45,968 nucleotides of DNA. Source: an uncultured Saprospiraceae bacterium. GTDB taxonomy: Bacteria; Bacteroidota; Bacteroidia; Chitinophagales; Saprospiraceae. The notes under the pieces were generated by a model. It was not told the origin of the DNA. It saw nothing but the letters and a program-made list of their open reading frames with translations, and did no database searches. This document shows positions 1,054-45,770 of this stretch, piece by piece (the stretch's first letter is position 1; each line of letters begins with the position of its first letter). The stretch spans positions 1-45,968 of the forward strand of contig CALCJP010000127.1 of NCBI GenBank assembly GCA_937967625.1. Direction: 5' to 3'. The position numbers and the translations under genes are program-made.

Positions 1054-1083
1054 GTGGGTTTTATTACCCTTTCGGGAAATGAA

Positions 1084-1122
1084 AATAGGCTGCAACTGTA
1101 CAAGTTGCAGCCTATTTTTATT
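1084..1122. terminator. Intrinsic (bidirectional) terminator
   Basis: Perfect 14-bp stem AATAGGCTGCAACT-gtaca-AGTTGCAGCCTATT followed by TTTATTT, just after the CDS ending at 1053. Confidence 0.8.
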
Positions 1123-1260
1123 TGCCGAAAGGCGTAAAGAATGAATCTAATTTGAGCGTCGTCTCCTGAAAGGGACGATGCGATATTTTGTGTCGCATCG
1201 TCCTCATTCGAGAGACGATACTCAAACTCTTTGAAATATTTGCCGAAAGGCGTAAAGAAT
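1119..1260. repeat. 24-bp direct repeat TATTTGCCGAAAGGCGTAAAGAAT (1119-1142 and 1237-1260) bracketing long palindrome copy 1
   Basis: The two 24-mers are identical by eye and flank the palindrome at 1151-1226. Confidence 0.85.
1151..1226. repeat. Long palindromic repeat, copy 1
   Basis: TTTGAGCGTCGTCTCCTGAAAGGGACGATGCGATATTTTGTGTCGCATCGTCCTCATTCGAGAGACGATACTCAAA; same family as 9395, 21046, 34043 and 44744. Confidence 0.9.
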
Positions 1261-2610
1261 TTAGGTAATTCCCTGCCCAATCATGGCATCGGCTATTTTT
1301 ACAAAACCGCCGATATTGGCGCCTTTTACGTAGTCCACTCCCTTTTTAGATTCGCCATATTCCACGCAAGTGGTGTGGATATTTTGCATGATATCCAGCA
1401 GGTTTTTATCAACCTCTTCGCGAGTCCAATTTTTGCGTAAGCTGTTTTGAGACATTTCGAGACCGGAGGTCGCAACGCCACCTGCATTGGATGCCTTTCC
1501 GGGAGCGAATAAAATTCCCGCTTTTTTGAACACCTCAACACCTTCTGGGTTAGTAGGCATATTTGCGCCTTCCGCGACTCCTATGCAGCCATTTTTTATC
1601 AAGTCTTCCGCGTTGCCTTTGTCCAACTCATTTTGAGTCGCCGACGGAAATGCCAGATCGCAAGCAATAGCCCATGGGCGTTCGCCTTCTAAATAACGAC
1701 AGCCAAAATGCTCTGCATATTCTTTAATTCTGCCTCGGCGGTTGTTTTTCAAATCCATGATCCAGTCTAATTTTTCGCGATTGATACCGTCTTTATCGAA
1801 AACAGTTCCGCTTGAGTCAGACATAGTGTGAACAGTGCCGCCCAAATCCAAAATCTTTTCGGCAGTGTATTGAGCCACATTTCCTGAGCCTGACACATTA
1901 CACTTTTTACCTTCAATTGAATCGCCTTTGTGCTTGAGCATTTCTTGCATAAAATAAACACAACCATAACCCGTCGCCTCGGGACGAATAAGGCTTCCGC
2001 CAAATGATAAGCCTTTGCCTGTAAAGACACCAGTGTGTTCATTGGCTAATTTCTTATACATTCCGAACATGTAGCCGACCTCGCGACCGCCAACGCCGAT
2101 GTCGCCTGCTGGCACATCAGTGTCAGGTCCGACATGACGAAATAGTTCTGTCATAAATGCCTGACAAAAACGCATCACCTCGCGATCTGATTTTCCTTTT
2201 GGGTTGAAGTTGGAGCCACCTTTTCCGCCACCCATTGGCAGAGAGGTTAAACTGTTTTTATAAGTCTGCTCAAACCCTAAAAATTTTAAAATGGAAAGAT
2301 TGACTGAGGGATGAAAACGCAAGCCTCCTTTGTAAGGTCCGATAGCCTGATTGAATTGGATTCGGTAGCCTTTGTTTACGTGGATGGCACCTTTGTCATC
2401 AGTCCAAGTGACTCTAAAACTAATGGTACGCTCCGGTTCCACTAATCTTTCAGGTAGTTGATGACCTGCATATTTAGGATTCGCATCGATAAAAGGAAGT
2501 ACTACTTCTGCCCATTCGTGGACGGCTTGGTGAAATTCTGGCTCATTGGGATTGTTCTTTTTGACCATTGCCATAAACGAAGAAAGGTCCGTCTTGGTGG
2601 TAGGACTCAT
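1261..2610 (-). CDS. gdhA: NADP-specific glutamate dehydrogenase
   Basis: 449 aa; 'GGLRFHPSVNLSILKFLGFEQTYKNSLTSLPMGGGKGGSNFNPKGKSDREVMRFCQAFMTEL' and the NAD-binding region 'VSGSGNVAQYTAEK'. Confidence 0.97.
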   Translation of the reverse strand: MSPTTKTDLSSFMAMVKKNNPNEPEFHQAVHEWAEVVLPFIDANPKYAGHQLPERLVEPERTISFRVTWTDDKGAIHVNKGYRIQFNQAIGPYKGGLRFHPSVNLSILKFLGFEQTYKNSLTSLPMGGGKGGSNFNPKGKSDREVMRFCQAFMTELFRHVGPDTDVPAGDIGVGGREVGYMFGMYKKLANEHTGVFTGKGLSFGGSLIRPEATGYGCVYFMQEMLKHKGDSIEGKKCNVSGSGNVAQYTAEKILDLGGTVHTMSDSSGTVFDKDGINREKLDWIMDLKNNRRGRIKEYAEHFGCRYLEGERPWAIACDLAFPSATQNELDKGNAEDLIKNGCIGVAEGANMPTNPEGVEVFKKAGILFAPGKASNAGGVATSGLEMSQNSLRKNWTREEVDKNLLDIMQNIHTTCVEYGESKKGVDYVKGANIGGFVKIADAMIGQGIT

Positions 2611-2863
2611 AGTTTTATTAAGTTTGATTAGGAAATTTTAATAAAAATTTAGGCAAATTTACTGGCTTTTATTCTTCAAAAAATAATTTTTTCCAATTTA
2701 GATTCTAAATCTGGTAATTAAGCTTGAAAAATACCCATTCTGCTTATTCAAAATATGGCAAGCCTAATCTTATTTTCTTCTTTCCTTTCGGAAAATACCA
2801 TTTCACTCATCAAACCTTTAGAAAAATCAGATGAACTGTACCTTCACCAAAAAAAATTAAACC

Positions 2864-4198
2864 ATGCGTTTTTGGTATTTCCTGCTTCTTATTGTTTTTG
2901 GTTGCAAAACTCCTCAACCCACCACGCAAACCGAACTTGCCACGATCCAAACTCAAATCGAAAACTCTCCGATTTTCGGACAGGGGTTTTCTGGTTTTGC
3001 CTTATTTGACCCGACTTCCGAGAAATATTTGTATGAATTCAATTCGGATAAATATTTCACGCCTGCCAGCAATACGAAGATTTTGACCTACTTCGTGGCG
3101 TCGCAGATTTTGGGCGATTCGGTGCCAGCGTTTCGATATTTGCCGAAAGGCGATTCTTTAATCATTATAGGGACGGGCGATCCGACTTTGCTGAATGCGA
3201 ATTTTTCGGATAGCGCGCGGGTGCTTGACATTTGCCGGAATTTATCCCGATCAGAAAATCGGGAGGCAGATAAAGTTTTTATCTCAACTCAAAATTTCGA
3301 TGATGACCGTTATGGCGCCGGTTGGATGTGGGATGACTATCCCTATGCTTTTCAAGTACATAAATCATCGCTACCAATTTATGGCAACGTAGCGCGATTT
3401 GAGCGAACCGAAGATTCGCCAGAACTCAAAGCCATTCCTTTTGCCTTTCGGCAAATGATCGAACTGGATCCTTCCATCAATAATAGCCGCCCACGAATCA
3501 TTCGCACCGAGCGCGGCAACGTTTTTAAAATGAATCAGTCGGCTTATTCAGGGCAACTATTTGGACGCAACGTCCCTTTTGACTACTCAGACTCGCTGAT
3601 GATTCGATTATTTGCGGAAGCGATAGGGAAAAAGGTTGAGTCAATTGAAGTCGAAGACTTCTCTAATTTTAAAACGATTTACTCTACGCATTCAGATAGT
3701 TTGTTTAGAAGATTGATGGTCAATAGCGACAACCATGTCGCAGAGCAATTGCTCCTCCTTTGCTCCGATAAATGGTTGGGAAAAATGAATACGAGAAAAT
3801 TGATCAGCGCCGCAATGGATTCCTTACTGGCAGATGTGCCTCAAAAACCGCGTTGGGTGGATGGCTCTGGCGTGAGTCGGTACAACCAGATTACGCCACA
3901 AACGCTCGTCTTCCTCCTCAATAAAATGTACCAATCAACTCCCTTTCGGGAAATACAATCCATTTTCCCGAAAGGGGGAGAAAACGGAACCATCAAGGAT
4001 TGGTATGGCGGAACACCTACCTACGTATTTGCCAAAACTGGTACCATGACCAATGTGCATTGCCTCAGCGGCTACATAGAAACAAGCAGCGGCAAGCGGC
4101 TGATTTTTAGCTTTATGCATAATAATTATGCGATTCCGATAAGGGAATTGAAAGTTGAGATGCAGCGGATTTTGGAGTGGGTGAGGGATACTTATTAA
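2864..4198 (+). CDS. dacB: D-alanyl-D-alanine carboxypeptidase/endopeptidase (PBP4, peptidase S13)
   Basis: Lipoprotein-like N-terminus; 'TPASNTKILTYF' (SxxK), 'NSDNHVAEQLLL' (SxN-like), 'FAKTGTM' (KTG). Confidence 0.92.
   Translation: MRFWYFLLLIVFGCKTPQPTTQTELATIQTQIENSPIFGQGFSGFALFDPTSEKYLYEFNSDKYFTPASNTKILTYFVASQILGDSVPAFRYLPKGDSLIIIGTGDPTLLNANFSDSARVLDICRNLSRSENREADKVFISTQNFDDDRYGAGWMWDDYPYAFQVHKSSLPIYGNVARFERTEDSPELKAIPFAFRQMIELDPSINNSRPRIIRTERGNVFKMNQSAYSGQLFGRNVPFDYSDSLMIRLFAEAIGKKVESIEVEDFSNFKTIYSTHSDSLFRRLMVNSDNHVAEQLLLLCSDKWLGKMNTRKLISAAMDSLLADVPQKPRWVDGSGVSRYNQITPQTLVFLLNKMYQSTPFREIQSIFPKGGENGTIKDWYGGTPTYVFAKTGTMTNVHCLSGYIETSSGKRLIFSFMHNNYAIPIRELKVEMQRILEWVRDTY
3231..3270. repeat. 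Compound palindromic element inside dacB
   Basis: TTTGCC-GGAA-TTTATCCCGATCAGAAAATCGGGA-GGCAGA; outer stem GCC/GGC, nested TCCCGAT/ATCGGGA, 24-nt insert after the tetraloop; encodes ICRNLSRSENREAD in frame. Confidence 0.8.
3941..3979. repeat. Two inverted mini-hairpins inside dacB
   Basis: CCCTTTCGGGAAAT (3941-3954) and ATTTTCCCGAAAGGGGGA (3962-3979), both in coding sequence. Confidence 0.85.
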
Positions 4199-5744: not shown

Positions 5745-5867
5745 AGTGCTCAGTGGTTCGGTTTAAATATGTTCTCCCTTTCGGGAAATGCGCCAACTGA
5801 TTTTCCTTTGGAAGGATTCGTCATTTTCTAAAAAACGACGAATCTTTGCGTTTTACATTTTTGAACC

Positions 5868-7595: not shown

Positions 7596-9311
7596 GCCCA
7601 TAAATTGCTTTAGGTGTGAAGAAGCGCCCACTTCATTGAGCGCAAATCGGAGATTCATAAGCAACTCTTGAGGAGGTAAGTTTTCGCGTTTTTCTACATC
7701 TTTCATGCTTAAATCAAAAGTCAATAACTCCTGCAATTGTGGATGATGATGTGCCAATTGCATCAATTCCGTAGCAAACATTTCTTCCTTGCCTGGATAG
7801 TTCATGATACTTCTTCTCCCTCCAAAAAGCACCTTTAAAAAAGGAATAAAAACCGATGCTTCCACAGCTTTTTTTAGCTCACTTCCTTTCGGAAAATATT
7901 TTGGCTTCAACGCCTCCGCAGCTTTCAAACAGCCGTTGCCGAAGTACTTCTCTGATTCCGCGAAAGCGGTAGAGTCAGCTGAGTTGAAAAGCGCATGTCG
8001 AACCGCTTCAACTTGCTTCCAAGTGCCAGCCATTTTTGTTTCCTCCAATTCTTTTCGAAAACGCTGAATCCATAATGCCGCCGCCGCTGCCACCTGAGGC
8101 GTCGCAGAAGAAGTCCCTCCCCCGCTCAACGACCACCACTTGTCTTTTCCTTGAGCTGCTGCCCAGGGAATATTCGGCGTGTAAGCTGCAATCGAATATT
8201 GCATCAAACTCGAAGGCCCATAATTTCCTTGCATAAATTCACTGTGCGAAAAGCCCGTTTGCTTCTTTGGTCGGTCGCAAGGATTTGCGTCAAAGACGTA
8301 GGGATGATGATTGCAACTCACCCCACAAGCAGCGATGACTCGCTCCCAACGAGCGGGATAGAGCAAGCATTTTGGAAGTAAACTTTTTGGACCTTTTACC
8401 CAACTATTACCCGCTGCTGTGACGATGGTTACGCCATTCTCATAAGCCCGATTGACCGCTCTCGCCCACTTGATAGAAGGCACTCCCGCCATTGACATTG
8501 TGACTACTTCGCAGCCAATATCGGTGGCATATTCAAGCGCTTTCGCGAAAGCGGAAGTTTTGATCAAGGCGACTGAATCAGCTATTCGAATCGGTACCAC
8601 TTCTGCCAGTGGCGCTCCACCGAAAGTATCCCCAAACTTGTTCTTTTTTCCAAATGCTTCAACATGTCCTCCTGCCAAAATTGCTAAGGTCGCAGCGCCA
8701 TGCCATTGCTGTTCTATGGAGGTTCCTTTCTCTGTGTCTGTAGCGTCTTTTGGGTTATCACCTGGGACAAAACTTCTTGCTTCTTTTGTATTCAGGTGTT
8801 CGGGCAAGCATGGATGATTGGCGTCATAACCAGTATCAAAATGCCCAATTTTCACTCGCTTAGCATCATTCTCAAAATAGGCTTTCGCCAAATCACGCGC
8901 CTTTCTCAATTGCGAATGTTCTTCATCCAAATGCCATGCGGGGGAGCCATGATGCTCCGGTTGTGGCCAGTTTTGCAAAAAATTATCTGAACCTGCCATG
9001 CGAGCACGTGGCAATTCACGCGGATTAAAAAGCAGATGCTCTTGCTCTGGTTCAACAAAATCAATTTGCTTTCCTTGCTGAAAAAAATGGTCTAATAATT
9101 CATGCGCCTCTTCCCACGGCGACTTGCCACTTTCGCCATCTGCGTGAAAGATATATTGCTCCTTATTTGACTTGGATGATTTGACGCCGCGCTTTTTAGC
9201 TTTGAAAAGCTCGACTTGATACTTAGAGTCTTTTAGCGATAGGTCTGCTTTGCGTACACTCCGAGAGTGACCACTGGGCTTTTCGAATTCGACGATGAAG
9301 GTGTTTGCCAT
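7584..9311 (-). CDS. S8 subtilisin-like serine peptidase without an evident signal peptide
   Basis: Catalytic motifs 'IGHFDTGYDANHP' (Asp), 'QWHGAATLAILAGG' (His), 'TAAGN' (oxyanion Asn), 'GGGTSSATPQVAAAAALW' (Ser). Confidence 0.85.
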   Translation of the reverse strand: MANTFIVEFEKPSGHSRSVRKADLSLKDSKYQVELFKAKKRGVKSSKSNKEQYIFHADGESGKSPWEEAHELLDHFFQQGKQIDFVEPEQEHLLFNPRELPRARMAGSDNFLQNWPQPEHHGSPAWHLDEEHSQLRKARDLAKAYFENDAKRVKIGHFDTGYDANHPCLPEHLNTKEARSFVPGDNPKDATDTEKGTSIEQQWHGAATLAILAGGHVEAFGKKNKFGDTFGGAPLAEVVPIRIADSVALIKTSAFAKALEYATDIGCEVVTMSMAGVPSIKWARAVNRAYENGVTIVTAAGNSWVKGPKSLLPKCLLYPARWERVIAACGVSCNHHPYVFDANPCDRPKKQTGFSHSEFMQGNYGPSSLMQYSIAAYTPNIPWAAAQGKDKWWSLSGGGTSSATPQVAAAAALWIQRFRKELEETKMAGTWKQVEAVRHALFNSADSTAFAESEKYFGNGCLKAAEALKPKYFPKGSELKKAVEASVFIPFLKVLFGGRRSIMNYPGKEEMFATELMQLAHHHPQLQELLTFDLSMKDVEKRENLPPQELLMNLRFALNEVGASSHLKQFMGLRP

Positions 9312-9498: not shown

Positions 9499-10377
9499 TT
9501 AGTCATGAATCAACTCAAGGCACTTTTTCAAGCTGTCTTGCCACTCAGGAATTTCTAAACCGAATGCTTCTTTGATTTTAGACTTGTCCAATACGCTGTA
9601 AGGTGGGCGCTTGGCAGGAGTTGGATAATCGGTCGTTGGAATCGGAACGACTTCCGTTTTCAAATCGCGAATATTGAATATCTCCTTGGCAAATTCCGCC
9701 CAATTGGTCACACCTTCGTTGCTATAGTGATAAATGCCTCTCAACTTGATGGAAGGCACTTCTCCTTTTTCCACTTTGTCAATCATTTCCATAATGGCTT
9801 TCGCCAAATCAGCAGCATAAGTCGGCGTCCCCACCTGATCGCTGACTATGGTCAACTTGTCCCGATCCTTTGCGAGGCGAAGCATTGTTTTGACAAAATT
9901 ATGCGCAAAAGAAGAATAGACCCAAGAGGTACGAATGATGGTCGTCATTGGATGAATTGAAAGTGCTAATTCATCTCCCTGTAACTTCGTTTTTGCATAA
10001 ACACTTTGCGGATTCGTCTCATCGCTTTCGCGAAATGGTCGGTCAGAATCCGAGTGATAGACATAATCGGTCGAAAGTTGGATGTAGGGAATGTTGCGAG
10101 TCAAGCATGATTGCGCCAATTCTTTTGGTCCGATTACATTGACTTTATGCGCCAATTCGGCGTCGCTTTCTGCTTTATCTACTGCGGTATATGCCGCACA
10201 ATTGATGCAGTAATCAGGCTGATTCTTTCTAAAATAATCTGCAACAAATTGCGGATTGGTGATGTCCAACTCAAACACATCTGTCCAAAGAAATTGATAT
10301 TGTGGATATTGAGCTTCTAACTCTTGAAACTCTTTTCCAACTTGTCCAGCTGCGCCGGTGATTAGTATTTTTTTCAT
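9499..10377 (-). CDS. rfbD: dTDP-4-dehydrorhamnose reductase
   Basis: 'MKKILITGAAGQVGKEF', 'YIQLSTDYVYHSDSDRPFRESDETNPQSVYAKTKLQGDE', 'GIYHYSNEG'. The 10443 start in the ORF track would translate through the hairpin repeat; ATG at 10377 is preferred. Confidence 0.93.
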   Translation of the reverse strand: MKKILITGAAGQVGKEFQELEAQYPQYQFLWTDVFELDITNPQFVADYFRKNQPDYCINCAAYTAVDKAESDAELAHKVNVIGPKELAQSCLTRNIPYIQLSTDYVYHSDSDRPFRESDETNPQSVYAKTKLQGDELALSIHPMTTIIRTSWVYSSFAHNFVKTMLRLAKDRDKLTIVSDQVGTPTYAADLAKAIMEMIDKVEKGEVPSIKLRGIYHYSNEGVTNWAEFAKEIFNIRDLKTEVVPIPTTDYPTPAKRPPYSVLDKSKIKEAFGLEIPEWQDSLKKCLELIHD

Positions 10378-10387: not shown

Positions 10388-10433
10388 ATTTTTCGCTTTC
10401 GCGAAATGAAAGTATTTCGCGAAAGCGAAAAAT
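10388..10433. repeat. Paired mini-hairpins forming a 20-bp inverted repeat
   Basis: ATTTTTCGCTTTCGCGAAAT-gaaagt-ATTTCGCGAAAGCGAAAAAT. Confidence 0.92.
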
Positions 10434-11018: not shown

Positions 11019-11148
11019 GCAGTAAAAATCGTTCGAGTATTTGACGAAAGTCAGGAGATTTGCCGAAAGGCTAAAAATCGCCTACGGTGAAGGTAAAACA
11101 AATTGCTGAATACTGTTTTCTATAATGGAAATGCATTGGCGATTTGCC

Positions 11149-12403: not shown

Positions 12404-12443
12404 CGCTTATTTCTTTCCCCTTTCGGGAAATGCGCGTGTATCA

Positions 12444-12482: not shown

Positions 12483-12582
12483 TTTTATGAAATTATTTAA
12501 CATTTGCCGAAAGGCGAATAAACTATAATGACTGATTGGGGCGTTAGTTAACTGTCCAATTTTTTTGAGAAAAATAAGAAAG

Positions 12583-14191: not shown

Positions 14192-15277
14192 ATGCGGAAT
14201 TTCGATGAACATAAGTTTGCTGATAGGCTGTATCTCGATGCTGTACATGGAGAACAGTTAGATGTCTTTTTGGCAAATGGTTGGTATCGGATGGGACAAA
14301 CTATTTTTACAACCCATTTCCTGTTTTTTGAACAGCGTGTTCTTTCTGCTATATGGTTGAGGCTTGCATTGGAAGGGTTTGAATTCAAAAAGAGCTTAAA
14401 AAAGATAATCAAAAGAAACAGGAGCAAGTTTCGGGTAGAAGTAGTGCCGTTTCAATTAACAGAGGAAAAAGAGGTTGTTTATCAAAAGTATGCAGCAGAT
14501 TTCAAAGGCTACCTTTCAGGTTCGCTCAAAAAATCACTTCTCGACGGGATGGAACAGAACGTTTTCCAAACCACAGAAATCAATATTTATGATGGTGATA
14601 AATTAGTAGCGTTTAGCTTTTTTGACGAAGGTCAAAATAGTCTGACAAGTATCTCCGGTGTGTATGACCCTGATTACAAATCTTATAGCTTAGGATTGTA
14701 CACTATGCTGGAGGAAATTCAATTTGGATTAGACACTGGTCGTGAATTTTATTACCCAGGCTACTTTGTGCCAGGCAATGAGAGATTTGATTATAAGCTG
14801 CGAGTTGGCGATGTCGAATATTTTGAGTTTGTTTCAAAAGCTTGGATTCCTTTCGGAAAATTTCAAGTTGAAAACATACCAATAAATAAGATGGCTAACG
14901 AGCTAAATACATTAGCCAACCTTTTTGAAGGGAAAGTGGATTTTTACAACAAATTCAATCCCTTTTTTGAATCCAATATTATTGAACACTGGCCGCTCCC
15001 CTATTTAGAGTATCCAATCATAATGGTTGTAAACATCGAAAAAGATGATGACGAAAATCACCGCTTAGTGATCATCTACAATTTTATCGAAGAAAAATTC
15101 ATGGCGCTAAGCTGTCGCACGTTTGATACCTTTCCTTCCAATTACAATATGGCATGGGTCAATAAGCTATCTGAAAAAAGCTTCATCAAAAACCAGTTGA
15201 TAATCAATCAGGTGTTATTCTCAACTCCAAAGGTTGATAAGATGTGTGAATGGATTTTAAGTGCCGCTAAAGAGTAG
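14192..15277 (+). CDS. Arginyl-tRNA--protein transferase (ATE/Bpt C-terminal, GNAT-like) family protein
   Basis: 'FLANGWYRMGQTIFTTHFLFF', 'VAFSFFDEGQNSLTSISGVYDPDYKSYSLGLYTMLEEIQFGLDTGREFYYPGYFVPGNERFDYKLRVGDVEYF' matches the ATE C-domain pattern. Confidence 0.78.
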   Translation: MRNFDEHKFADRLYLDAVHGEQLDVFLANGWYRMGQTIFTTHFLFFEQRVLSAIWLRLALEGFEFKKSLKKIIKRNRSKFRVEVVPFQLTEEKEVVYQKYAADFKGYLSGSLKKSLLDGMEQNVFQTTEINIYDGDKLVAFSFFDEGQNSLTSISGVYDPDYKSYSLGLYTMLEEIQFGLDTGREFYYPGYFVPGNERFDYKLRVGDVEYFEFVSKAWIPFGKFQVENIPINKMANELNTLANLFEGKVDFYNKFNPFFESNIIEHWPLPYLEYPIIMVVNIEKDDDENHRLVIIYNFIEEKFMALSCRTFDTFPSNYNMAWVNKLSEKSFIKNQLIINQVLFSTPKVDKMCEWILSAAKE

Positions 15278-15734
15278 CAAAAAGCTCCAGTGCTTCGTTT
15301 TCTTTTTCTCTCATCAAATTTGCCTCTTCTTCTGATTTGTCTTTATAGCCGCAAAGGTGAAGCACCCCGTGAATGATGACTCTATTCAACTCCATTTCGA
15401 CGGAAGTCTGAAAAAGCTTAGCGTTTTCTTGGACTCTTTCAATACTGATGAAGATATCGCCTTCTATGGCTTCATTTCCTTCCTCATAGCCGAAAGTTAT
15501 GATGTCTGTGAGCGTATCGTGATTAAGGTATTTGATATTTAGCTCCAACAAATATTTATCAGAGCAAAAGACATAAGTGAGTTTGGAAATAGATTTTTGC
15601 TCTGCTGAGGTGACTTGATGTATCCAATCAAATATAGCCTTTGAGTTGTGCAACTCAAAGGCTATATCTTCACTAAAAAATTCTATTGGTAAATCTGATT
15701 CAGGAGCAGGAAAGTCCTGAGGAATATCTGTCAT
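15267..15734 (-). CDS. ybeY: Endoribonuclease YbeY (rRNA maturation)
   Basis: 'YLNHDTLTDIITFGYEEGNEAIEGDIFISIERV...HGVLHLCGYKDKSEEEANLMREKE' with HGVLHLxGYDH-like motif. Confidence 0.95.
   Translation of the reverse strand: MTDIPQDFPAPESDLPIEFFSEDIAFELHNSKAIFDWIHQVTSAEQKSISKLTYVFCSDKYLLELNIKYLNHDTLTDIITFGYEEGNEAIEGDIFISIERVQENAKLFQTSVEMELNRVIIHGVLHLCGYKDKSEEEANLMREKENEALELFATL
15632..15667. repeat. 36-nt palindrome inside ybeY
   Basis: ATATAGCCTTTGAGTTG-TG-CAACTCAAAGGCTATAT, 17-bp perfect arms. Confidence 0.95.
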
Positions 15735-29067: not shown

Positions 29068-29222
29068 AATTTAATGAAAATCAAAATTACAATGAAAATG
29101 AAAACACTCACCCATTGGATTTTATTTTGATGTTCATCTTCAATTTTTTTGAGTAAAACCAGTTAGCTTACGCAAAAATCAAATTTTCGTTTGACTTTAT
29201 TTGCCGGAAGGCAGAAAACTAT

Positions 29223-29597
29223 CTAAGCTAATTGCGAAACGATCCGCTCTTCCATCATGCTGCTGATTCGCTTATTGATTTCGCTTTGTTGCTGATGGTA
29301 GAAGTTTAATTCTTCTAACTCGAAAAGAGCAATTACAATTCCAATCAAGAGCGTTCTTAACTTCTGATTCTTTTGAAGCGTGGATTGGATTTTTTCTTTT
29401 TTCCCTTTCGGGGAATATTTCCCCAAGTCGATTTTGAACCGATTTATTTCCGAAAGGAAAATCGCCAAGATGATTTCGTTTTGAAATTTGAGTATCGGAC
29501 GCAATACTTCATGATGAAACTGCTCTATTGGCGTTTGTATCTGTTCAGTTTCAATCGCAGCAATTTGTGGACGCAAGGTTTTTATATTTTCTCTCAT
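29223..29597 (-). CDS. Hypothetical protein (124 aa) containing two mini-hairpins
   Basis: Coding-like composition; internal elements CCCTTTCGGGG (29403) and TTTCCGAAAGGAAA (29447). Confidence 0.5.
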   Translation of the reverse strand: MRENIKTLRPQIAAIETEQIQTPIEQFHHEVLRPILKFQNEIILAIFLSEINRFKIDLGKYSPKGKKEKIQSTLQKNQKLRTLLIGIVIALFELEELNFYHQQQSEINKRISSMMEERIVSQLA

Positions 29598-31752: not shown

Positions 31753-31815
31753 CCCTTTCGGGAAATGATGTACCATATTATTTGCCGAAAGGCATGTCCC
31801 GAACTCGCTTCGGGA
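31753..31815. repeat. Mini-hairpin pair plus nested hairpin segment
   Basis: CCCTTTCGGGAAATG (31753), TTTGCCGAAAGGC (31781-31793), ATGTCCCGAACTCGCTTCGGGA (31794-31815). Confidence 0.85.
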
Positions 31816-32393: not shown

Positions 32394-33629
32394 TTATTGC
32401 ACCTCCCCTCTCAATATCACCTGCTCCACCAAATCACTTCCAAAAGCATAAGGCAGATAAGCAATCGAAGACATTGGCTTCGAGATGAAGGCGTTTGCCA
32501 ACTTCCCTTTGGCAATCGAACCCATTTCGTTTTCGACATCCATGGCGATTGCGCCGTTGATGGTTGCGGCATTGATGGCTTCCTCAGGAGTCATGCGGAG
32601 GTTGATACAAGCGAGTGAAAGCACGAATGGCATTTTGCCGGAAGGCGTGGTGCCTGGGTTGAAATCAGTTGCTAAGGCAACGCCGAGACCCTCGGTAATC
32701 ATTTTTCGCGCAGGCGGAAAATGATTTTGATTTAAGAAAAAAGGAGCGGTCGGCAGCAAGCAAGGAATCGTATTCGAGTTTTTCAAAACTTGAATTTCTT
32801 TATCAGTGACGACTTCGAGGTGATCGACCGATTTTGCGCCATGATTGACGGCAGCTTCAATGCCACCGAGGCTATAAAATTGGTTGGTGTGAATTTTTGC
32901 AGGCAATCCATATTTGGCGCCAGCCTCCATGATTTGTTCCGTTTCCCTTACGGAAAATGCTACTTTTTCACAGAACACATCAATATAATCCGCCAAGCCT
33001 TCCTCGGCGATTTGCGGAAGCATTTCTTCTAAAACGATGCGCATGTATTCCCCGCGATTACTTCGATATTCCATCGGAATGGAATGAGCGCCCAAAAATG
33101 TCGCTTTAATTTCAGCCGATGATTTTTCTTTTAATTTTCGAATGACGCGGAGCATTTTCAACTCGCTTTCGAAAGTCAAGCCATAACCGCTTTTGATTTC
33201 GATAGCGCCTGTGCCGTAGCTGATGACTTCTTGCAATCGCTCCCATGCTTGCTTGAAGAGTTTTTCTTCTGAGGTGGCTTGCAACTTTCTCGCGGAATTA
33301 AGTATGCCGCCCCCACGAGCGGAGATTTCCTCATAAGACAAGCCGTTGATTCTATCTACAAATTCGCCTTCTCTGCTTGCTGCAAATACTAAGTGCGAGT
33401 GCGAATCACAGAAAGAAGGGAATACCATTTTTCCTTCCGCGTCGATTGTTTTTTCTGCCCTTGACGAGCAATGTTCCATCTCGCCAAAATCTGCAATCCG
33501 CTCATTTTCAATGAGCAGAAAAGCATTTTCAATACAGGGAAGGTGCTGCATGTCGGCACCTTTTACGATTGAATTGTCTGAGCGAACTTGAACTAACTTT
33601 TTAATATTTCGAATCAGGAGGGAACTCAT
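32394..33629 (-). CDS. hutI: Imidazolonepropionase
   Basis: 'FCDSHSHLVFAASREGEFVDRINGLSYEEISARGGGILNSARK', 'IEIKSGYGL', 'ATDFNPGTTPSGKMPFVLSLACINLRMTPEEAINAATING'. Confidence 0.96.
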   Translation of the reverse strand: MSSLLIRNIKKLVQVRSDNSIVKGADMQHLPCIENAFLLIENERIADFGEMEHCSSRAEKTIDAEGKMVFPSFCDSHSHLVFAASREGEFVDRINGLSYEEISARGGGILNSARKLQATSEEKLFKQAWERLQEVISYGTGAIEIKSGYGLTFESELKMLRVIRKLKEKSSAEIKATFLGAHSIPMEYRSNRGEYMRIVLEEMLPQIAEEGLADYIDVFCEKVAFSVRETEQIMEAGAKYGLPAKIHTNQFYSLGGIEAAVNHGAKSVDHLEVVTDKEIQVLKNSNTIPCLLPTAPFFLNQNHFPPARKMITEGLGVALATDFNPGTTPSGKMPFVLSLACINLRMTPEEAINAATINGAIAMDVENEMGSIAKGKLANAFISKPMSSIAYLPYAFGSDLVEQVILRGEVQ

Positions 33630-34144
33630 GGTTTGAAGTCAATTTTCTTTTCCAAATAATCCACATATCTCACATCTCCTAATCTGAACTTGAAAGGAAT
33701 TTTAGCGGCTTTTTCTATTTGCACTTCGACTTTGCAAAAGAAAGCTAAGTCATTGTAGGAATATGCTTTTGGCTGTGCCGTTGGGCAGTAGCTTTTATTG
33801 AGAATGGAATATTTTAGTTGAAGTGGATTGAGGAGGGCTGATTTAAGGGTATCTGATTTTTCGAAGGAAGTCGATTGCGCATTTGCCGAAAGGCAAAAGA
33901 AAAAAGGAAGGGCTAATGTGAGGACAATCGTTTTAAAGAAATTATTTTTTTTTAAGAGATCAGTGGTGGGACGATTTGGAGTCGTGCCGCCACAATTGCT
34001 ACTTCTCGTGGCACGAGTAATTTCCGCAGTATTTTTTGCCAGTTTGAGCCTCGTCTCCTGATAAGGGACGATGCGACACAAATGAACACATCGTCCCCTT
34101 TGGGAGACGATACTCAAATTAGTGTTTTTGTTGAGCTGTCTCAT
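33626..34144 (-). CDS. Secreted hypothetical protein; computed N-terminus (~68 aa) is translated repeat
   Basis: Signal peptide 'KKNNFFKTIVLTLALPFFFCLSANAQS' begins internally without an in-frame ATG/GTG/TTG nearby; the start at 34144 overlaps the stop of the upstream gene (ATGA) and reads through the long palindrome. Confidence 0.5.
   Translation of the reverse strand: MRQLNKNTNLSIVSQRGRCVHLCRIVPYQETRLKLAKNTAEITRATRSSNCGGTTPNRPTTDLLKKNNFFKTIVLTLALPFFFCLSANAQSTSFEKSDTLKSALLNPLQLKYSILNKSYCPTAQPKAYSYNDLAFFCKVEVQIEKAAKIPFKFRLGDVRYVDYLEKKIDFKP
34043..34118. repeat. Long palindromic repeat, copy 4
   Basis: TTTGAGCCTCGTCTCCTGATAAGGGACGATGCGACACAAATGAACACATCGTCCCCTTTGGGAGACGATACTCAAA. Confidence 0.9.
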
Positions 34145-35434: not shown

Positions 35435-35454
35435 ATTTTGCCGAAAGGCAAAAT
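35435..35454. repeat. Mini-hairpin (GCC stem), perfect 20-mer
   Basis: ATTTTGCCGAAAGGCAAAAT. Confidence 0.9.
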
Positions 35455-35556: not shown

Positions 35557-35594
35557 AAAATGGGGTTGCCCTCCTAAAAGAACAACCCCATTTT
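35557..35594 (-). terminator. Intrinsic terminator of the rpoZ transcript
   Basis: AAAATGGGGTTG-ccctcctaaaagaa-CAACCCCATTTT, immediately downstream of the minus-strand gene ending at 35613. Confidence 0.8.
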
Positions 35595-35612
35595 CACGAA
35601 AGTGAAAAAAGA

Positions 35613-35954: not shown

Positions 35955-36762
35955 CTTCTAAAGATTTTATTTTATTATTTGATTTATCCAACATCGAAGT
36001 CACTTTGTTTCGATATTCAGATTTGGAATATTTTTTCAAAAACTCTTTTGAGTATTTCTTAACGGATTCGTATCGTTCTAATTGTTTGGTAACAACACTA
36101 TTCTCAGCAAGTTGAAAAGTGGAGTTAGCTAAAAGGAACCGAATGTATTCACCGTTTTTCGTTTCGGGATAATCTTTTAGCAGATTTTCACCTACCAAAA
36201 CCGCTGCCTGATACTGGCGCAAGTCAAAATATAGTTGCGCTTCGTTGAGCGCTTTTTGCTCCATTTTGACGCGAAGCTCATCTATCAATTGATTTGCTTG
36301 AGCTACTTTGTCACTTTCTGGAAAGGTATTGATAAACAATTGAAAATTTTCAATTGCTTTTTCAGTACTGGTTTGTTCTAACTTGGCATTTGGCGAAAGC
36401 TGATAATTCGCGTAAGCAGACATGAAATCTGCATCTTCTCTCAAAGCACTATTCGGAAACGTCGTCGTGAAGTTTTTAAAATAGTAAGAAGCAAGCACAT
36501 ACTGCTTGTCAAAATAGTAGGTGTTGGCATACTTGAAGTAAATATCTTCCAACTCTGCTTTTCCTCGATAGCTCGGGATGATGAGTTCAAACAACGCCTG
36601 CGCTTTGATGTAGCGTTCGGCTTCGTAATACTCAAAAGCTTTTTTATAAATCAAATCTACATCGCCACTGGTTCGAACTTTTTCGAAATCCGTCTTGCAG
36701 CTCGTCACTAAAACGAGGAGTAAAGACACCAAAAAGAACCAATTGATTAAGCCTTTCTTCAT
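35920..36762 (-). CDS. bamD: Outer membrane protein assembly factor BamD
   Basis: Lipoprotein signal 'LLLVLVTSCKTDFEKV', TPR-rich 'KAFEYYEAERYIKAQALFELIIPSYRG...YYFKNFTTTFPNS'. Confidence 0.93.
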   Translation of the reverse strand: MKKGLINWFFLVSLLLVLVTSCKTDFEKVRTSGDVDLIYKKAFEYYEAERYIKAQALFELIIPSYRGKAELEDIYFKYANTYYFDKQYVLASYYFKNFTTTFPNSALREDADFMSAYANYQLSPNAKLEQTSTEKAIENFQLFINTFPESDKVAQANQLIDELRVKMEQKALNEAQLYFDLRQYQAAVLVGENLLKDYPETKNGEYIRFLLANSTFQLAENSVVTKQLERYESVKKYSKEFLKKYSKSEYRNKVTSMLDKSNNKIKSLEDERYQNKGAGR

Positions 36763-36914
36763 AAGGGGCGCAAAATTAACAGGATTATTGAAATTTTTCT
36801 GATTTTTTTGCCTTTCGGCAAATGGCGAATCGCCTGCGTAAAAGACTAAATTTCAGAGGAATTGGTTGGTTGATATTTTTTTTCTCAAATTTGAGCGTCC
36901 ATACATGAGATTCA

Positions 36915-39483: not shown

Positions 39484-39684
39484 TTTTCACTTTCGTGAAA
39501 TGCACTCATTTCGCGAAAGCAAAATGTACCTCAGGCTTCCAGCCTGAGACCATGTAGAAAGTGAAAAAAACTAATTTACACATTCAAATTCCAACCTGTT
39601 TACATCAAACACCACTGCATCGTTTTTTTAGGGAACAGTTGTTTAGGCTGGAAGCCTGAAGTACATATTTCACGAAAGTGAAAA
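39484..39684. repeat. ~200-bp MITE-like element with composite inverted ends
   Basis: Left end TTTTCACTTTCGTGAAAT..ATGTACCTCAGGCTTCCAGCCTGAG; right end AGGCTGGAAGCCTGAAGTACATATTTCACGAAAGTGAAAA is nearly its reverse complement. Confidence 0.75.
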
Positions 39685-39778
39685 AAATCATTTTTGGCGA
39701 AAGCCAACCTCACCAATACTTGAAAGCAACCAAATCATTACCTTTGCAGCCATTTTCAAAAATAGAAGAATCGTATAA

Positions 39779-42229
39779 ATGAAAATCTCTCTTAACTGGC
39801 TCAAAGAATATATTGACTTAGACGGATTCACTCCTGACCAAATCAGCGAAATGTTGACTGATTTAGGCTTAGAAGTGGAAGGCATGGAAACCTTTGAAAG
39901 TGTCAAAGGCGGACTGAAAGGCATCGTGGTCGGAGAAGTAAAAACTTGCGGCAAACACGAAAACGCAGATAAACTTTCAGTCACCACGGTGGATGTCGGA
40001 GGAGCCGATTTGCTCAATATCGTTTGTGGTGCGCCCAATGTGGCGGCAGGACAGAAAGTGTTGGTAGCAACAGTAGGCACAACAATCTACCCTACCGGCG
40101 CAGAGGAAGGAATCAAAATGAGTGAGCGAAAAGTGCGCGGTGTTGTCTCTCAAGGACTGATTTGCGCAGAAGATGAATTGGGGTTGGGGACGAGTCATGA
40201 TGGGATTATGGTCTTGCCAAATGAGGTGGCAGTTGGTACGCAAGGAGCAGATTATTTGAAAGTCGAGAATGATGTGATTTACGAAATTGGGCTTACGCCA
40301 AATAGATCTGACGGAACCAATCATTTAGGAACTGCGAGAGATTTAGCAGCCACTTTGAAAATGAACTTTGGAAAATCAGGCGTCACAACACCTCCATCTG
40401 TTGATGATTTTAAAATCGAATCAACTGATATTGGAATTGATGTGGTGGTAGAAAATACGGCTTCTTGCCCTCGCTACACAGGTGTAGTCATTAAAAATCT
40501 AACCATCGCCGAATCGCCTGATTGGTTGAAAAATCGCTTGCAAGCGGCGGGCATTCGTCCGATAAATAATGTGGTAGATGTCACCAATTTTGTGCTCAAG
40601 GAATTGGGGCAACCGCTCCATGCTTTTGATTATGATAAAATTGGAGGGAAGAAAATCATCGTGAAAAATTTGCCGAAAGGCACTCCTTTCAAAGCATTGG
40701 ATGAGAACGAATATAAGTTGCGCGCCAATGATTTGATGATTTGCGATGGCGACTCGAAACCGATGTGTATCGGAGGAGTCTTTGGTGGAATCGATTCGGG
40801 AGTGACGGACGGAACGAAAACCATATTTTTAGAGTCGGCGCATTTTGATCAAATTTCGATTCGTCAGTCGAAGACCAAGCATAATTTGCATACTGACGCG
40901 GCATTCGTTTTTGAAAAAGGAAGTGATCCAAATAACACTGTTTTTGCACTCAAGCGCGCTGCTTTGTTGATTAAGGAATTGGCAGGTGGCGAAGTCGCTT
41001 CTGAAATCATTGATTTATATCCAAACCCGATTGCACCGAAAGAAATCGAAGTCGCTTATAAAAATGTAAATCGATTGATAGGCGTCGATATCCCACCTGC
41101 GAAAATCAAAGAAATTCTCGAAGCGATGGGTATGAAATATATCGGCGAAACAGAGAAAAATTTCACCGTCGCAGTACCGACCAATAAAACAGACGTGACT
41201 CGCGAAGTAGATATCATCGAAGAAATTTTACGGGTCTATGGCTTGAATAATGTACCAATGCCGACGCAGATTCGCAGCTCAGTGGTGATTGGGGAGAAGC
41301 CCGATCCGTTGGTGATTCAAAATCAGATAGCCGATTTGCTTTCCGCAAATGGCTTCAACGAAATGATGGCGCTTTCGCTCATCGAATCCAAATTTGCGAC
41401 ACAGGTCTTAGGCATGGCGGAAGAAGCGTTGGTTTATATCAACAACACTTCCAACGCTCATTTGGACATCATGCGCCCGACGATGGTGTTCAGTGGATTG
41501 GACGCCATTTTGAGAAATCAAAATCGTAAGAACTCAGATTTGAGATTGTACGAATTCGGGAAGACTTACATCAAAGGCGAAGAGGAAGGCAAGTTTAAAG
41601 AAACGCAGCACTTGACTCTTTTCGTGACTGGAAAAAGCAGTGCAGAAAGTTGGCGCAGAGAAGCAAAAGAATTCGAATATTATTCTTTAAAGACTTACGT
41701 CGAAAATGTGTTGGGTAAACTCGGCTTGCAAAAATATCAAGTGTCTGAAGTCGAAAATCCGATTTTTAATTTTGGATTAAAATATCACCGAGGTCAGCAA
41801 AACTTAGTGGAGTTCGGAAAAGTGAGTGGCGCAATCGCCAAAAAAGTAGGCGTGAAGAATGCTGTTTTCTACGCTGACTTTAACTGGGACGCCATTTTAA
41901 AAGCCATCAAAAAACATAAAATCCGATTTGAGCCATTGAACAAATTCCCGACCATGCGTCGTGATTTGGCATTGGTAGTCGATTCGAAAGTGAAGTTTTC
42001 TGACATCGCGAGCATTGCCCGAAAGGCAGAGAAAAAAATATTGAAAGAGGTCAATCTTTTCGATGTCTTTGTGAGTGAAGAGAAATTGGGAGCGGGTAAA
42101 AAATCGTATGCCGTCAGCTACGATTTCGAAAACCCTGAGAAAACACTCAGCGACAAAGAAGTGGATAAAGTGATGAATAAATTGATAGGGAGTTATGAGC
42201 ATCAATTGGGGGCGGTGATTAGGCGGTAG
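39779..42229 (+). CDS. pheT: Phenylalanyl-tRNA synthetase beta subunit
   Basis: 816 aa; 'MKISLNWLKEYIDL', 'LTPNRSDGTNHLGTARDLAA', 'VDVTNFVLKELGQPLHAFD', C-terminal FDX-ACB 'KFPTMRRDLALVVD'. Confidence 0.98.
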   Translation: MKISLNWLKEYIDLDGFTPDQISEMLTDLGLEVEGMETFESVKGGLKGIVVGEVKTCGKHENADKLSVTTVDVGGADLLNIVCGAPNVAAGQKVLVATVGTTIYPTGAEEGIKMSERKVRGVVSQGLICAEDELGLGTSHDGIMVLPNEVAVGTQGADYLKVENDVIYEIGLTPNRSDGTNHLGTARDLAATLKMNFGKSGVTTPPSVDDFKIESTDIGIDVVVENTASCPRYTGVVIKNLTIAESPDWLKNRLQAAGIRPINNVVDVTNFVLKELGQPLHAFDYDKIGGKKIIVKNLPKGTPFKALDENEYKLRANDLMICDGDSKPMCIGGVFGGIDSGVTDGTKTIFLESAHFDQISIRQSKTKHNLHTDAAFVFEKGSDPNNTVFALKRAALLIKELAGGEVASEIIDLYPNPIAPKEIEVAYKNVNRLIGVDIPPAKIKEILEAMGMKYIGETEKNFTVAVPTNKTDVTREVDIIEEILRVYGLNNVPMPTQIRSSVVIGEKPDPLVIQNQIADLLSANGFNEMMALSLIESKFATQVLGMAEEALVYINNTSNAHLDIMRPTMVFSGLDAILRNQNRKNSDLRLYEFGKTYIKGEEEGKFKETQHLTLFVTGKSSAESWRREAKEFEYYSLKTYVENVLGKLGLQKYQVSEVENPIFNFGLKYHRGQQNLVEFGKVSGAIAKKVGVKNAVFYADFNWDAILKAIKKHKIRFEPLNKFPTMRRDLALVVDSKVKFSDIASIARKAEKKILKEVNLFDVFVSEEKLGAGKKSYAVSYDFENPEKTLSDKEVDKVMNKLIGSYEHQLGAVIRR

Positions 42230-42580: not shown

Positions 42581-42912
42581 AACAGATGGATGATCAAAAA
42601 GACATGGTGAGCATAACCGTCCTGATTGCAGGAAGACCTTACCCGCTTCGAATCAAATCGACCGAAGAGCCGTCCATTCGTAAAATCGTGAAGGAAATCA
42701 ATAATCAGATAAATTCCTTTCAACTTAAATACACCACCAAAGACAAACAGGACTGCCTCTCTATGGTAGCACTGACGTATGCAGTTGATTTGGCGAAAGC
42801 CAAATCGAAAAAAGAAGAAATGCCTCCGTCTCTATTCTCTGCCGACAGTTCGGCAATTTTCGACCAACTTTCCGCTCTGGATTCCCTTCTGGATAATGCC
42901 TTAGATAAATGA
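42577..42912 (+). CDS. zapA: Cell division protein ZapA
   Basis: 'VSITVLIAGRPYPLRIKSTEEPSIRKIVKEINNQINSFQLKYTTKDKQDCLSMVALTYAVDLAKAK'; upstream of rny. Confidence 0.88.
   Translation: MKQMDDQKDMVSITVLIAGRPYPLRIKSTEEPSIRKIVKEINNQINSFQLKYTTKDKQDCLSMVALTYAVDLAKAKSKKEEMPPSLFSADSSAIFDQLSALDSLLDNALDK
42788..42805. repeat. Perfect mini-hairpin (GGC stem) inside zapA
   Basis: ATTTGGCGAAAGCCAAAT. Confidence 0.85.
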
Positions 42913-43070
42913 TTAAGCAATCATTTCTTTTTTCGCTTTCGCTAAATTGCCTGTTCTAATTCATTAGAAAGGGCATTTGCCGAAAGGCGATTAGCTAAGA
43001 GCAATTTCCCACATTTTTTAATTACCCGACTTGTTATCAAGCAAGTCTTTTCTTAAAAACCGTTCGAGTT

Positions 43071-44732
43071 ATGGACATAGGTATTGGAATTATTGGCGGT
43101 CTGGTCTTAGGTGCCCTTGTGGGCTACTTTGTAGTGCAGACTTTCGTCAAAAAAATGAGTCAAGGGCGAATCGAGGAGATGAACAGAAAAGCAGATCTCG
43201 AGATTCAAGAAGCGAGAGTGACTGCTAACCGATTGGTCAGCGACGCAGAAGCCAAAGCGAACAAAATCGTTTCGAAGGCAGAGAGCAAGAACGAATCAAT
43301 CAAACAGAAAAAGATTTCTGAGGCAAAAGAAAAATTTGCGCGCATGAAATCTGAAATTGATTCTGAACGCGCCAATCTGAAAGTAGAGTTGAAAGACAGA
43401 GAGGTTGATGTCGTGAAAAGAGAGACCTCGATTAAACAAAAAGAAGATACGCTGAAGCAAAAATCAATCGACGTTGAGGACAGAGAAAAAGAAATCAAAG
43501 TAGTCCGTGAAAACCTTGATAAGCAATTAAAAATCGTTGCGAAAAAGAAAGAAGAACTCGATAACGCCAACGAAATCCACATCAAAAAACTGGAAAGCGT
43601 TGCGAGACTTTCTGAAGCAGAAGCTAAAGAGCAATTGCTCGAAGCAGTTAAAGCAAAGTCTGAAACTGACGCGATGGCAATTGTCAAATCTTCTATCGAA
43701 GAGGCAAAAGCGACTTCTAATAAAGAAGCGAAGAAAATCATCATTCAGACCATTCAGCGGATGTGTGCTGAATATACGATTGAAAATACGGTTTCGGTTT
43801 TCAACCTTGATTCAGATGATTTGAAAGGTCAGATTATCGGGCGAGAGGGAAGAAACATTCGTGCGCTCGAAGCGGCGACAGGTGCTGAGATTGTAGTCGA
43901 TGACACACCAGAGGCGATTGTGATTTCGAGTTTTGATCCGATTCGACGAGAGGTTGCTCGGTTGTCTTTGAAGAAATTAGTGGCAGATGGACGTATCCAC
44001 CCTGCGCGAATTGAAGAAGTAGTTGCTAAAACCAAAAAGCAATTAGAAGAACAAATCATCGAAATCGGTGAAAGGACGGTAATTGACCTCGACATTCATG
44101 GCTTACACGCCAGCTTAGTGAGAATGGTCGGGCGTATGCGTTTCCGCTCATCTTATGGTCAAAACCTTTTGAAGCACTCTATCGAAACTGCGAATCTTTG
44201 CGCAACGATGGCTGCCGAATTGGGTTTAAATCAAAAGCAAGTCAAATTAGCGAAACGTGCCGGTTTGCTGCATGACCTCGGAAAAGTGGCAGAAGAAGAA
44301 ACGGAATTGTCACACGCAATCCTCGGTATGAAGATGTGTGAAAAAGTAAACGAGCACAAGTTTGTTTGCAACGCCGTCGGAGCACACCACGATGAAGTTG
44401 AAATGACTAATATCATTTCCCCAATCGTTCAAGCATGTGATGCTATCTCAGGCGCGAGACCGGGTGCGAGACGCGAAATTTTAGAGAGTTACCTCAAACG
44501 TATCGGCGAATTGGAAGAAATCGCAATGGGCTACCAAGGCGTTCAGAAAGCATTCGCAATGCAAGCAGGTCGCGAGTTGCGCGTCATCGTTGAAGCTGAA
44601 AAAGTAACAGACCAATATGCAGATGATTTGTCCTTTATGATTTCTCAAAAAATTCAGGACGAAATGCAGTACCCTGGTCAAATCAGAGTTACCGTCATCA
44701 GAGAACGACGAGCCGTCGCCTTTGCGAGATAA
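43071..44732 (+). CDS. rny: Ribonuclease Y
   Basis: N-terminal TM + coiled coil, KH '[48 protein letters not shown]', HD domain '[14 protein letters not shown]'. Confidence 0.97.
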
Positions 44733-44883: not shown

Positions 44884-44903
44884 ATATTCAAACTTAACTT
44901 AAT

Positions 44904-45626
44904 ATGAAAAAGATACTATTCACACTTCTATTTATAGCTTCAACCATCGGTTTTGCTTTTGCTCAGAGCTATGCCTTTGGGCTTAAAGGAGGTCCTACCA
45001 TTGGCACGCAGCAATGGGATGGATTCGATCGGCAACCATTGTTTAGTTATCATGGAGTAGCATTTATTGAGTCTGCTCCTGAAGACAATTCCTTCGCGCT
45101 TTTCGCGCAATCAGGCTATCATGTCAAAGGTAGTTCTATTGGAGGTAATTTGGGAATTAATCCGACTACTGGTAATCCTTTTCGTTTTTCTTCTCAGGGG
45201 TTTGAGTTTCATAATATTGATTTGGTATTGGGAGCAAAGCAGAAATTTGATAAAGACTTTTTCGGCAACTCAAAAGCATATTATCTTTTTGGAGTTCGAG
45301 GTGATTATACGATCAGTACTAATTTGGATGAATATCAGCAAGTCAATTCTATTTACTTTCCAATACCCCAGTTTGTGCGGAAGTGGAATTATGGAGCAAC
45401 TGTTGGCGGAGGTTTTGAAGTGCCTTTAAGTGATTTTGTAGCAGGAATTTTAGAGTTAAATATTCACCCAGATTTTTCAAACCAGTACATGCAAGGTGCC
45501 ATTCCAAATGTGCGAAACCCTTTCACCGGTCAGCTCTCTACCGTCCCTGAGCGAACGATTCGGAATCTTACTTTTGAAATTAGTTTAGGGTTCAGATTCT
45601 TGCATAAGATTGAGTATATTGATTAG
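44904..45626 (+). CDS. Outer membrane beta-barrel protein
   Basis: Signal peptide 'MKKILFTLLFIASTIGFAFAQS', 'YAFGLKGGPTIGTQQWDG', terminal strands 'EISLGFRFLHKIEYID'. Confidence 0.78.
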   Translation: MKKILFTLLFIASTIGFAFAQSYAFGLKGGPTIGTQQWDGFDRQPLFSYHGVAFIESAPEDNSFALFAQSGYHVKGSSIGGNLGINPTTGNPFRFSSQGFEFHNIDLVLGAKQKFDKDFFGNSKAYYLFGVRGDYTISTNLDEYQQVNSIYFPIPQFVRKWNYGATVGGGFEVPLSDFVAGILELNIHPDFSNQYMQGAIPNVRNPFTGQLSTVPERTIRNLTFEISLGFRFLHKIEYID

Positions 45627-45627
45627 G

Positions 45628-45689
45628 TTTTTTCCCTTTCGGGAAATGAATTTGAATGTAGCATGTCATTTCCCGAAAGGGAGAAAAAT
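45628..45689. repeat. Paired inverted mini-hairpins (CCC stems)
   Basis: TTTCCCTTTCGGGAAATGA ... TCATTTCCCGAAAGGGA. Confidence 0.9.
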
Positions 45690-45770
45690 AGGAGATAATT
45701 TATCACCTACTCATTTTTCCGAAAGGGAAAGGAAAAACGCAAAGCGGAAGAAGAAGAGCGAATCGCTAAG

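Follow-up and report, generated by a model that had tools for sequence, protein, structure and literature searches.

The 45,968-nucleotide contig CALCJP010000127.1 of an uncultured Saprospiraceae bacterium (GenBank assembly GCA_937967625.1), referred to here as the window, carries a dispersed family of DNA mini-hairpins with a conserved T-rich foot and a C-G-closed GNAA loop; the 3-bp stem is free in sequence while its pairing is kept, and sites on the same strand avoid one another over about 1.5 kb. In its draft genome of 3.08 Mb (278 contigs, 64% complete; G000 where a label is needed) the window is contig 127, and the unit recurs across that genome. The interpretation towards which we lean, with considerable reserve, is that these hairpins are a structure-coded counterpart of the DNA uptake sequences (DUS) of Neisseriaceae and the uptake signal sequences (USS) of Pasteurellaceae, and that a bias in transformation or recombination has spread them.

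Abundance of the mini-hairpins

A preliminary description of the window had proposed a recurrent family of mini-hairpins and a comparison with dinucleotide-shuffled DNA. The family is borne out by that comparison: there are 55 paired sites, whereas 200 dinucleotide shuffles gave 0.67 on average and never more than 3. The positions it gave agree with ours to within a few bases, with the exception of 10114, where there is no site. With the full definition NTT(T/C)-NNC-GNAA-GNN, in which the stem must be paired and an outer wobble is permitted, there are 1,328 sites in 1.16 Mb of unmasked G000 DNA (17 kb of the sampled DNA was masked), drawn from contigs of which the first two batches were partly chosen for containing matches and the later ones were mostly sequential. 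Exact matches to ATTTNNCGAAAGNNAAAT number 145 in the genome against 1 for the reversed pattern, and ATTTNNCGAAAG is matched 1,971 times against 16 for its reverse. The shuffled and reversed-pattern counts rule out chance or base composition as the origin of the hairpins. Their density is about one per kb, without orientation bias, and they lie both inside and between genes. The window contains no match to Rfam RNA families.

Foot, stem and loop

The unit reads 5'-(Y)ATT(T/C)-NNC-GNAA-GNN and is followed by an A-rich tail, as seen for the GAAA form in an alignment of every CGAAAG with a 3-bp stem. On the 5' side of the stem the foot is conserved (A 71%, T 93%, T 94%), whereas the 3' A's able to pair with it are present at only about 50%, within a diffuse A-rich tail that stands where a T-run might have been and is not. 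The element is therefore oriented, and the full ATTT...AAAT symmetry originally attributed to it was overstated, being exact in the window only at 39508 and 42788.

The loop had been described as a fixed C[GNRA]G, which is correct for its C-G-closed GNAA members and too general for the rest. Among paired stems that follow ATT(T/C), the closing pair is C-G in 218 of 225 GAAA loops, and GNAA loops are strongly enriched (518 paired against 65 expected by chance), whereas GNGA loops, which form half of the GNRA class, are not (2 against 1.5 expected). GNCA (12, with 3 expected) and GNAG (9, with 2 expected) are in slight excess. Stable DNA tetraloops belong to the families c(GNNA)g and c(GNAB)g, and these fit the minor classes better than an RNA GNRA loop, which would accept GNGA. 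The proposed GTAA variants do exist as a class, with clean cases at 18983 and 40290, but of those first named the one near 27108 has a T-T outer mismatch and the one near 32941 a T-G outer wobble. Predicted folding energies as single-stranded DNA (ssDNA) are modest, from -1 to -6 kcal/mol in five examples.

Covariation of the stem

We measured covariation in 1,077 G000 sites matching ATT(T/C)NNCGNAAGNN, picked regardless of pairing. The inner free pair is Watson-Crick in 97.1% of these, against 34.8% if the two columns were independent, and the outer free pair in 85.5% against 33.5%, with exceptions at the outer pair that are mostly T-G, G-T and A-G. All sixteen NNC stems are present. Full pairing is far rarer among CGNAAG cores that lack this ATT context, at 327 of 1,386. 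The claim that the two arms change together, so that pairing rather than sequence is kept, is thus confirmed genome-wide, and recognition of the hairpin by its structure and not by its stem sequence is strongly supported. These pair statistics indicate that the structure itself is kept rather than the half-sites of a palindrome, and they rule out a homodimer bound to a double-stranded palindrome with independent half-sites.

Strand-specific spacing

In G000, pairs of sites in the same orientation and 250-1,500 bp apart occur at 0.67-0.76 of the uniform expectation, compared with 0.91-0.99 for pairs in opposite orientation, and both classes are back at 1 by 2-3 kb. The repulsion is seen when both members lie in coding sequence (260 same-orientation against 406 opposite-orientation pairs at 120-1,000 bp). 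Control motifs have about half or more of their pairs in the same orientation, the sole exception being ATTTNNCG, which contains the sites themselves. The coefficient of variation of same-strand gaps is 0.864, against 1.022 +/- 0.023 when orientation labels are shuffled with positions fixed; without sites closer than 60 bp the values are 0.891 and 1.019 +/- 0.027. Within contigs the two orientations are balanced beyond what coin-tossing would give (chi-squared 25.6 on 69 degrees of freedom, or 31.9 on 63 without close pairs). This strand-specific repulsion is new in the present analysis and goes beyond the preliminary description. In a second genome of the family, G110, there are 58 same and 64 opposite pairs at 120-1,500 bp, and 41 and 82 at 1,500-3,000 bp, a signal that is weaker, on another scale and suggestive only.

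The simplest meaning of these observations is that one site serves one strand over about 1 kb and that a second one in range adds little. Separate tiling of the two strands points to a saturable signal that is read on ssDNA, and since both strands are treated equally it would not mark replication polarity; the balanced orientation rules out replication-polarity signals such as FtsK-orienting polar sequences (KOPS) and primase sites.

Genomic placement and origin

With open reading frames (ORFs) taken from mechanical calls, the density in the sampled G000 DNA is 0.90/kb inside ORFs and 2.78/kb between them. About two thirds of the sites (903 of 1,328) are inside ORFs, where orientation is unrelated to the gene strand (453/450). 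Intergenic density is highest between convergent genes (4.2/kb) and lowest between divergent ones (1.8/kb). The equal gene orientations, together with the lack of GNGA loops and the strand-specific spacing, lead us to favour DNA rather than RNA as the functional form of the hairpin.

At the positions of window sites, the DNA of congeners is mostly hairpin-free and of equal length, and congeners rarely share sites at orthologous positions. Alignments are ungapped in 30 of 34 cases and have only 2-4 gap positions in the other four, with no insertion-sized gap in any of the 34, all over sites in genes. The equal length of these hairpin-free relatives indicates that hairpins in genes were, to judge by the alignments, made in place by point substitution.

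Dialects and head-to-head pairs

Saprospiraceae metagenome-assembled genomes (MAGs) with the same motif at similar density include HH_bin16, S141_9, S144_25 and 134-614. Enrichment of ATTTNNCGAAAG differs between the family genomes searched: a few unrelated genera show it strongly (matches against the reversed pattern are 929/15 in G110, 725/41 in G066, 334/11 in G031 and 278/9 in G033), others to a moderate degree and most not at all. The density of the motif varies more than 50-fold among family members. Stem preference is mixed in G000. G110 prefers GCC/GGC, where the middle pair changes from C-G to G-C and yet remains a pair (the inner pair is Watson-Crick in 82.6% against 39.8% expected), and the G031 dialect uses TGC/TCC stems with a GCAA loop at least as frequent as GAAA.

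Sampled G000 DNA contains 44 head-to-head pairs of the form AAAT-N6-ATTT, compared with no more than 4 for each of the other spacings between 14 and 45. The spacer is R-N4-Y, that is, each unit starts Y-ATTT, and both units have the same stem in 19 of the 44 pairs against 5.4 expected. Exact 6-nt pairs number 101 in the G000 genome and 2 in G001, with none in 396 other family genomes, and they look like a derived, genus-level use of the unit.

Viral carriage was considered and rejected, there being no exact GCC or dimer matches and, for a degenerate 18-mer, one match per contig among the loci listed, which we read as chance. Gut Clostridia MAGs contain a similar 18-mer that belongs to an unrelated repeat, present only in its GCC version and with other hairpins around it. 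At those loci (L135-L207) ATTTGCCGAAAGGCAAAT adjoins other short hairpins through ATATCGAG- or ATATCACT-like linkers, and the whole looks like an unrelated hairpin-array repeat.

A possible structure-coded uptake or recombination signal

In the interpretation that we tentatively favour, the signal (Y)ATTT-NNC-GNAA-GNN would be recognised as folded ssDNA through its 5' T-rich foot, free 3-bp stem and C-G-closed GNAA loop. Sites would arise in place through point substitution, and DNA bearing them would be preferentially transmitted, with the result that sites spread and are maintained; the most likely route would be natural transformation, with a bias in how incoming single strands are taken up or recombined. 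We favour such a signal because the hairpin resembles DUS and USS in its abundance, its origin by substitution, its dialects, its excess between genes and its inverted pairs. Those signals, like the hairpin, occur about once per kb, both inside genes and, at higher density, between them, without strand bias (PMC1939737, PMC3630211, PMC7811141), the USS at a spacing of about 1 kb (PMC7811141). USS are considered to evolve via point mutation and not insertion (PMC1939737), as suggested here for sites in genes; DUS occur as lineage dialects (PMC3630211), and inverted intergenic pairs, as here, are known for both DUS and USS (PMC1939737, PMC3630211, PMC7811141). The stem covariation and the strand effect would place recognition at the single-stranded stage of transformation, during which just one strand reaches the cytoplasm (PMC7811141). 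Unlike DUS and USS, which are a fixed sequence read as double-stranded DNA by a type IV pilus component, the hairpin has a stem that is free but paired and a strand-specific spacing, and type IV pilus ATPases are missing from nearly all of the genomes. The hairpin belongs to no known family tested, and its genomic behaviour parallels that of DUS and USS. We infer that ssDNA is the substrate, that a dedicated protein binds the hairpin and that transformation drives its spread. The composite proposal, of a genome-wide signal in which an ssDNA hairpin is read by a putative protein, tiles each strand about every kb, is driven by biased single-strand uptake or recombination and has diverged into Saprospiraceae dialects, is offered a shade more tentatively again.

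Several points weigh against an uptake or recombination signal. Known USS act as double-stranded DNA, and their orientation is without effect on uptake (PMC1939737). Natural competence has not been demonstrated for these uncultured bacteria, and nothing that we found accounts for which genomes are enriched. ComEC and tandem helix-hairpin-helix (ComEA-like) genes are present in the family, but they are equally present in unenriched genomes and so do not discriminate as a cause of enrichment. For the type IV pilus ATPase, 36 genomes yielded a single strong PF00437 match (G132), all further matches being marginal and partial and G000 being only 64% complete; with this ATPase mostly missing, a classical DUS receptor is unlikely. 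The weaker spacing effect in G110 and its different scale count in the same direction, and the exact 6-nt pairs are left unexplained by the model.

In many of the family genomes tested (G110:C52, G066:C68, G033:C47, G031:C61 and others), ComEC lies near a protein of about 300-400 aa with several HHH_3 repeats, which is likely a ComEA-like competence protein. HIP1 of cyanobacteria resembles the hairpin in being short, very abundant, present in genes and of unsettled function, but it is a fixed 8-bp palindrome whereas the hairpin is a looped structure with a free stem. Literature searches on Bacteroidota or Saprospiraceae, aimed at uptake signals in hairpin form or at structural repeats, brought up nothing relevant.

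Other explanations

The main rival, unlikely as we judge it, is a Chi-like recombination or repair signal, in which a helicase-nuclease resecting a DNA end would read the hairpin on one strand and switch from degradation to recombination, one correctly oriented site per kb or so being sufficient. Chi sites, read by RecBCD or AddAB, are short, dispersed and strand-specific, with one in range sufficing, and a signal of this kind predicts just the strand-specific, saturable spacing with both orientations present that the hairpin has, as well as a DNA and not an RNA signal inside and between genes. However, Chi is a sequence and not a hairpin, and in E. coli it favours the leading strand, whereas here neither replication strand is favoured and orientation is balanced in every contig region. 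Plain selection on about 2,500 single sites against coding constraint also seems weak without drive.

Slightly less probable than Chi-like signalling is some other chromosomal role for an ssDNA hairpin under ordinary selection, for example as a structural or replication-restart protein site. Strand-specific spacing and a kept structure would suit such a role and by themselves name no process, but the balanced orientation speaks against a lagging-strand or fork-polarity function and the more than 50-fold range of density within the family would be odd for an essential one.

The preliminary description had suggested a repetitive extragenic palindrome (REP)-like element recognised by a Y1 transposase, and we now regard this as improbable. 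A 5' tetranucleotide and hairpin would be moved by a Y1 (RAYT/IS200-like) transposase, with REPIN-like head-to-head dimers included. The anatomy fits that of group 3 REPs, in which the stem sequence is loose and the 5' tag and the loop are conserved (PMC8266576), and head-to-head dimers dominate among REPs (PMC3733652), to which the 101 exact pairs of G000, with shared stems in 19 of the 44 inspected, would correspond; here, such dimers are confined to G000 and G001. Known REPs, however, have a GTAG or CGTC tag and stems of 5-13 bp (PMC3733652), in contrast to ATT(T/C) and 3 bp for the hairpin, two thirds of whose sites are in ORFs, and the substitutional origin of sites in genes does not agree with a mostly extragenic spread by insertion. 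Y1_Tnp is absent from the enriched and nearly complete genomes G033, G022, G118 and G016 and abundant in unenriched ones, and this lack of correlation speaks against dependence on a Y1 transposase. One of four Y1_Tnp matches in G000 has a hairpin pair directly downstream, but the density of hairpins near Y1 genes does not exceed what the intergenic average (about 2.8/kb) predicts. The transposase reading is therefore not supported; what survives of the earlier interpretation is its other suggestion, a new structural repeat class.

At one G000 locus (L003, G000:C11:119-3463, about 1380-2250), direct CCACAGGTTTTACCTGTGGTTATTCATATTTAACTGCTTCGCAGTTTT copies stand on both sides of an IS200-like Y1 transposase gene. 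An 81-bp stretch across the hairpin pair downstream of this gene has a 90% copy in G001:C150, despite the lack of any Y1_Tnp match in G001 in the Y1 search.

An RNA element (terminator, mRNA stabiliser or GNRA-receptor hairpin) is very improbable: the intergenic enrichment, with its convergent maximum and divergent minimum, and the stability of C-G-closed GAAA as an RNA loop would suit it, but equal use of the gene strands contradicts it for two thirds of the sites, and the sense orientation, GNRA tolerance and 3' U-run of GNRA hairpins and intrinsic terminators are all lacking, as is any Rfam match.

Sites in the window

Intergenic sites with a GCC stem are at 1120-1133 (+), 1238-1251 (+, sharing a ATTTGCCGAAAGGCGTAAAGAAT context with 1120), 12502-12515 (+), 21139-21152 (-, about 7.1 kb from the next site), 29199-29212 (+, loop GGAA), 35436-35449 (+, extended to 8 bp), 36810-36823 (-) and 42975-42988 (+). 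Stem CCC is found between genes at 1067-1080, 5776-5789 and 12418-12431 (all -) and in a head-to-head arrangement at 45634-45681 (- 45634-45647, + 45668-45681), stem TCC at 2783-2796 (-) and, with an outer wobble, at 45714-45727 (+), and stem CAC at 35591-35604 (+) and 39488-39501 (-), the latter forming a 6-nt-spaced pair with an imperfect + unit at 39508. Two intergenic tandems are on the + strand, at 11039-11071 (GAC and GCC) and 39667-39705 (CAC and GGC).

The Glu/Leu/Phe/Val dehydrogenase gene contains sites at 1359-1372 (+, CAC, loop GCAA) and 1992-2005 (-, GGC, loop GGAA; gapless against relatives). In the peptidase S13 gene there are GCC sites at 3138-3151 (+, where the relative is hairpin-free and of equal length) and 3443-3456 (-, extended to 6 bp) and two head-to-head CCC hairpins at 3941-3976 (- 3941-3954, + 3963-3976). 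The subtilase gene carries 7884-7897 (-, TCC), 7955-7968 (+, CGC), overlapping CGC hairpins on both strands at 8538-8553, and 8880-8893 (-, GGC), and the RmlD-like gene 9796-9809 (-, GGC) and 10023-10036 (-, CGC), at both of which relatives are ungapped and hairpin-free. Further sites lie at the end of a FeoB-like gene (18983-18996, +, CGC, loop GTAA), in a glycosyltransferase gene (28264-28277, +, GCC with outer wobble; 28501-28514, -, CAC), in an amidohydrolase gene (32633-32646, +, GCC, loop GGAA), in the phenylalanyl-tRNA synthetase beta gene (40290-40303, -, GGC, loop GTAA; 40668-40681, +, GCC, relatives ungapped; 41692-41705, -, GAC, loop GTAA) and in the RNase Y gene (43139-43152, -, GAC). 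Other ORFs contain 14848-14861 (-, TCC), 15395-15408 (+, GAC, loop GGAA), 20410-20423 (-, GCC), 20915-20928 (-, CGC), 29403-29416 (-, CCC), 33881-33894 (+, GCC) and 36388-36401 (+, GGC with outer wobble).

A head-to-head pair AAAT-GAAAGT-ATTT with the exact 6-nt spacer and two CGC stems occupies 10394-10427 on both strands, and a second head-to-head arrangement spans 31753-31793 (CCC, - 31753-31766; GCC, + 31780-31793). The remaining sites are 32945-32958 (-, TCC with an outer T-G wobble, loop GTAA) and 42788-42801 (+, GGC), which has the full ATTT...AAAT symmetry.

Other repeats

A multicopy repeat of about 150 bp lies at the contig end (window 1-155), with tens of copies at 87-100% identity in the congener G004 and more diverged ones in G001 and G003. 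TCCCGA-N-TCGGGA, mostly in the form TCCCGAACTNGCTTCGGGA, is a second family of dispersed hairpins; it has a fixed stem and a variable loop and occurs in the window at 3245, 6084, 12459, 17376, 21169, 31797 and 37895. There are 47 copies in sampled G000 DNA, 26 of them in ORFs, compared with 0-3 for scrambled arms. Small groups of intergenic hairpins in G000 (L005-L024, L105-L124, L225-L284) have fixed cores, of the types CCAAAT-TTA-TTTGG, GAATTTCATTC and GC-CTTA-GC, with varying outer stems, and may represent regulatory elements or additional structural repeats.

Implications

The dispersed genomic signals that we know of (DUS, USS, Chi, KOPS and HIP1) are all sequence codes, and dispersed hairpin repeats such as REPs are mobile elements. 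The same-strand repulsion statistic used here is a cheap test that can be applied to any dispersed motif. In these Saprospiraceae, a stem that is free to vary and a spacing that depends on strand would imply a protein that reads folded ssDNA chromosome-wide. If so, the hairpins would offer a view of single-strand exposure in bacterial life, and would allow one to test whether structure can be the target of uptake drive.

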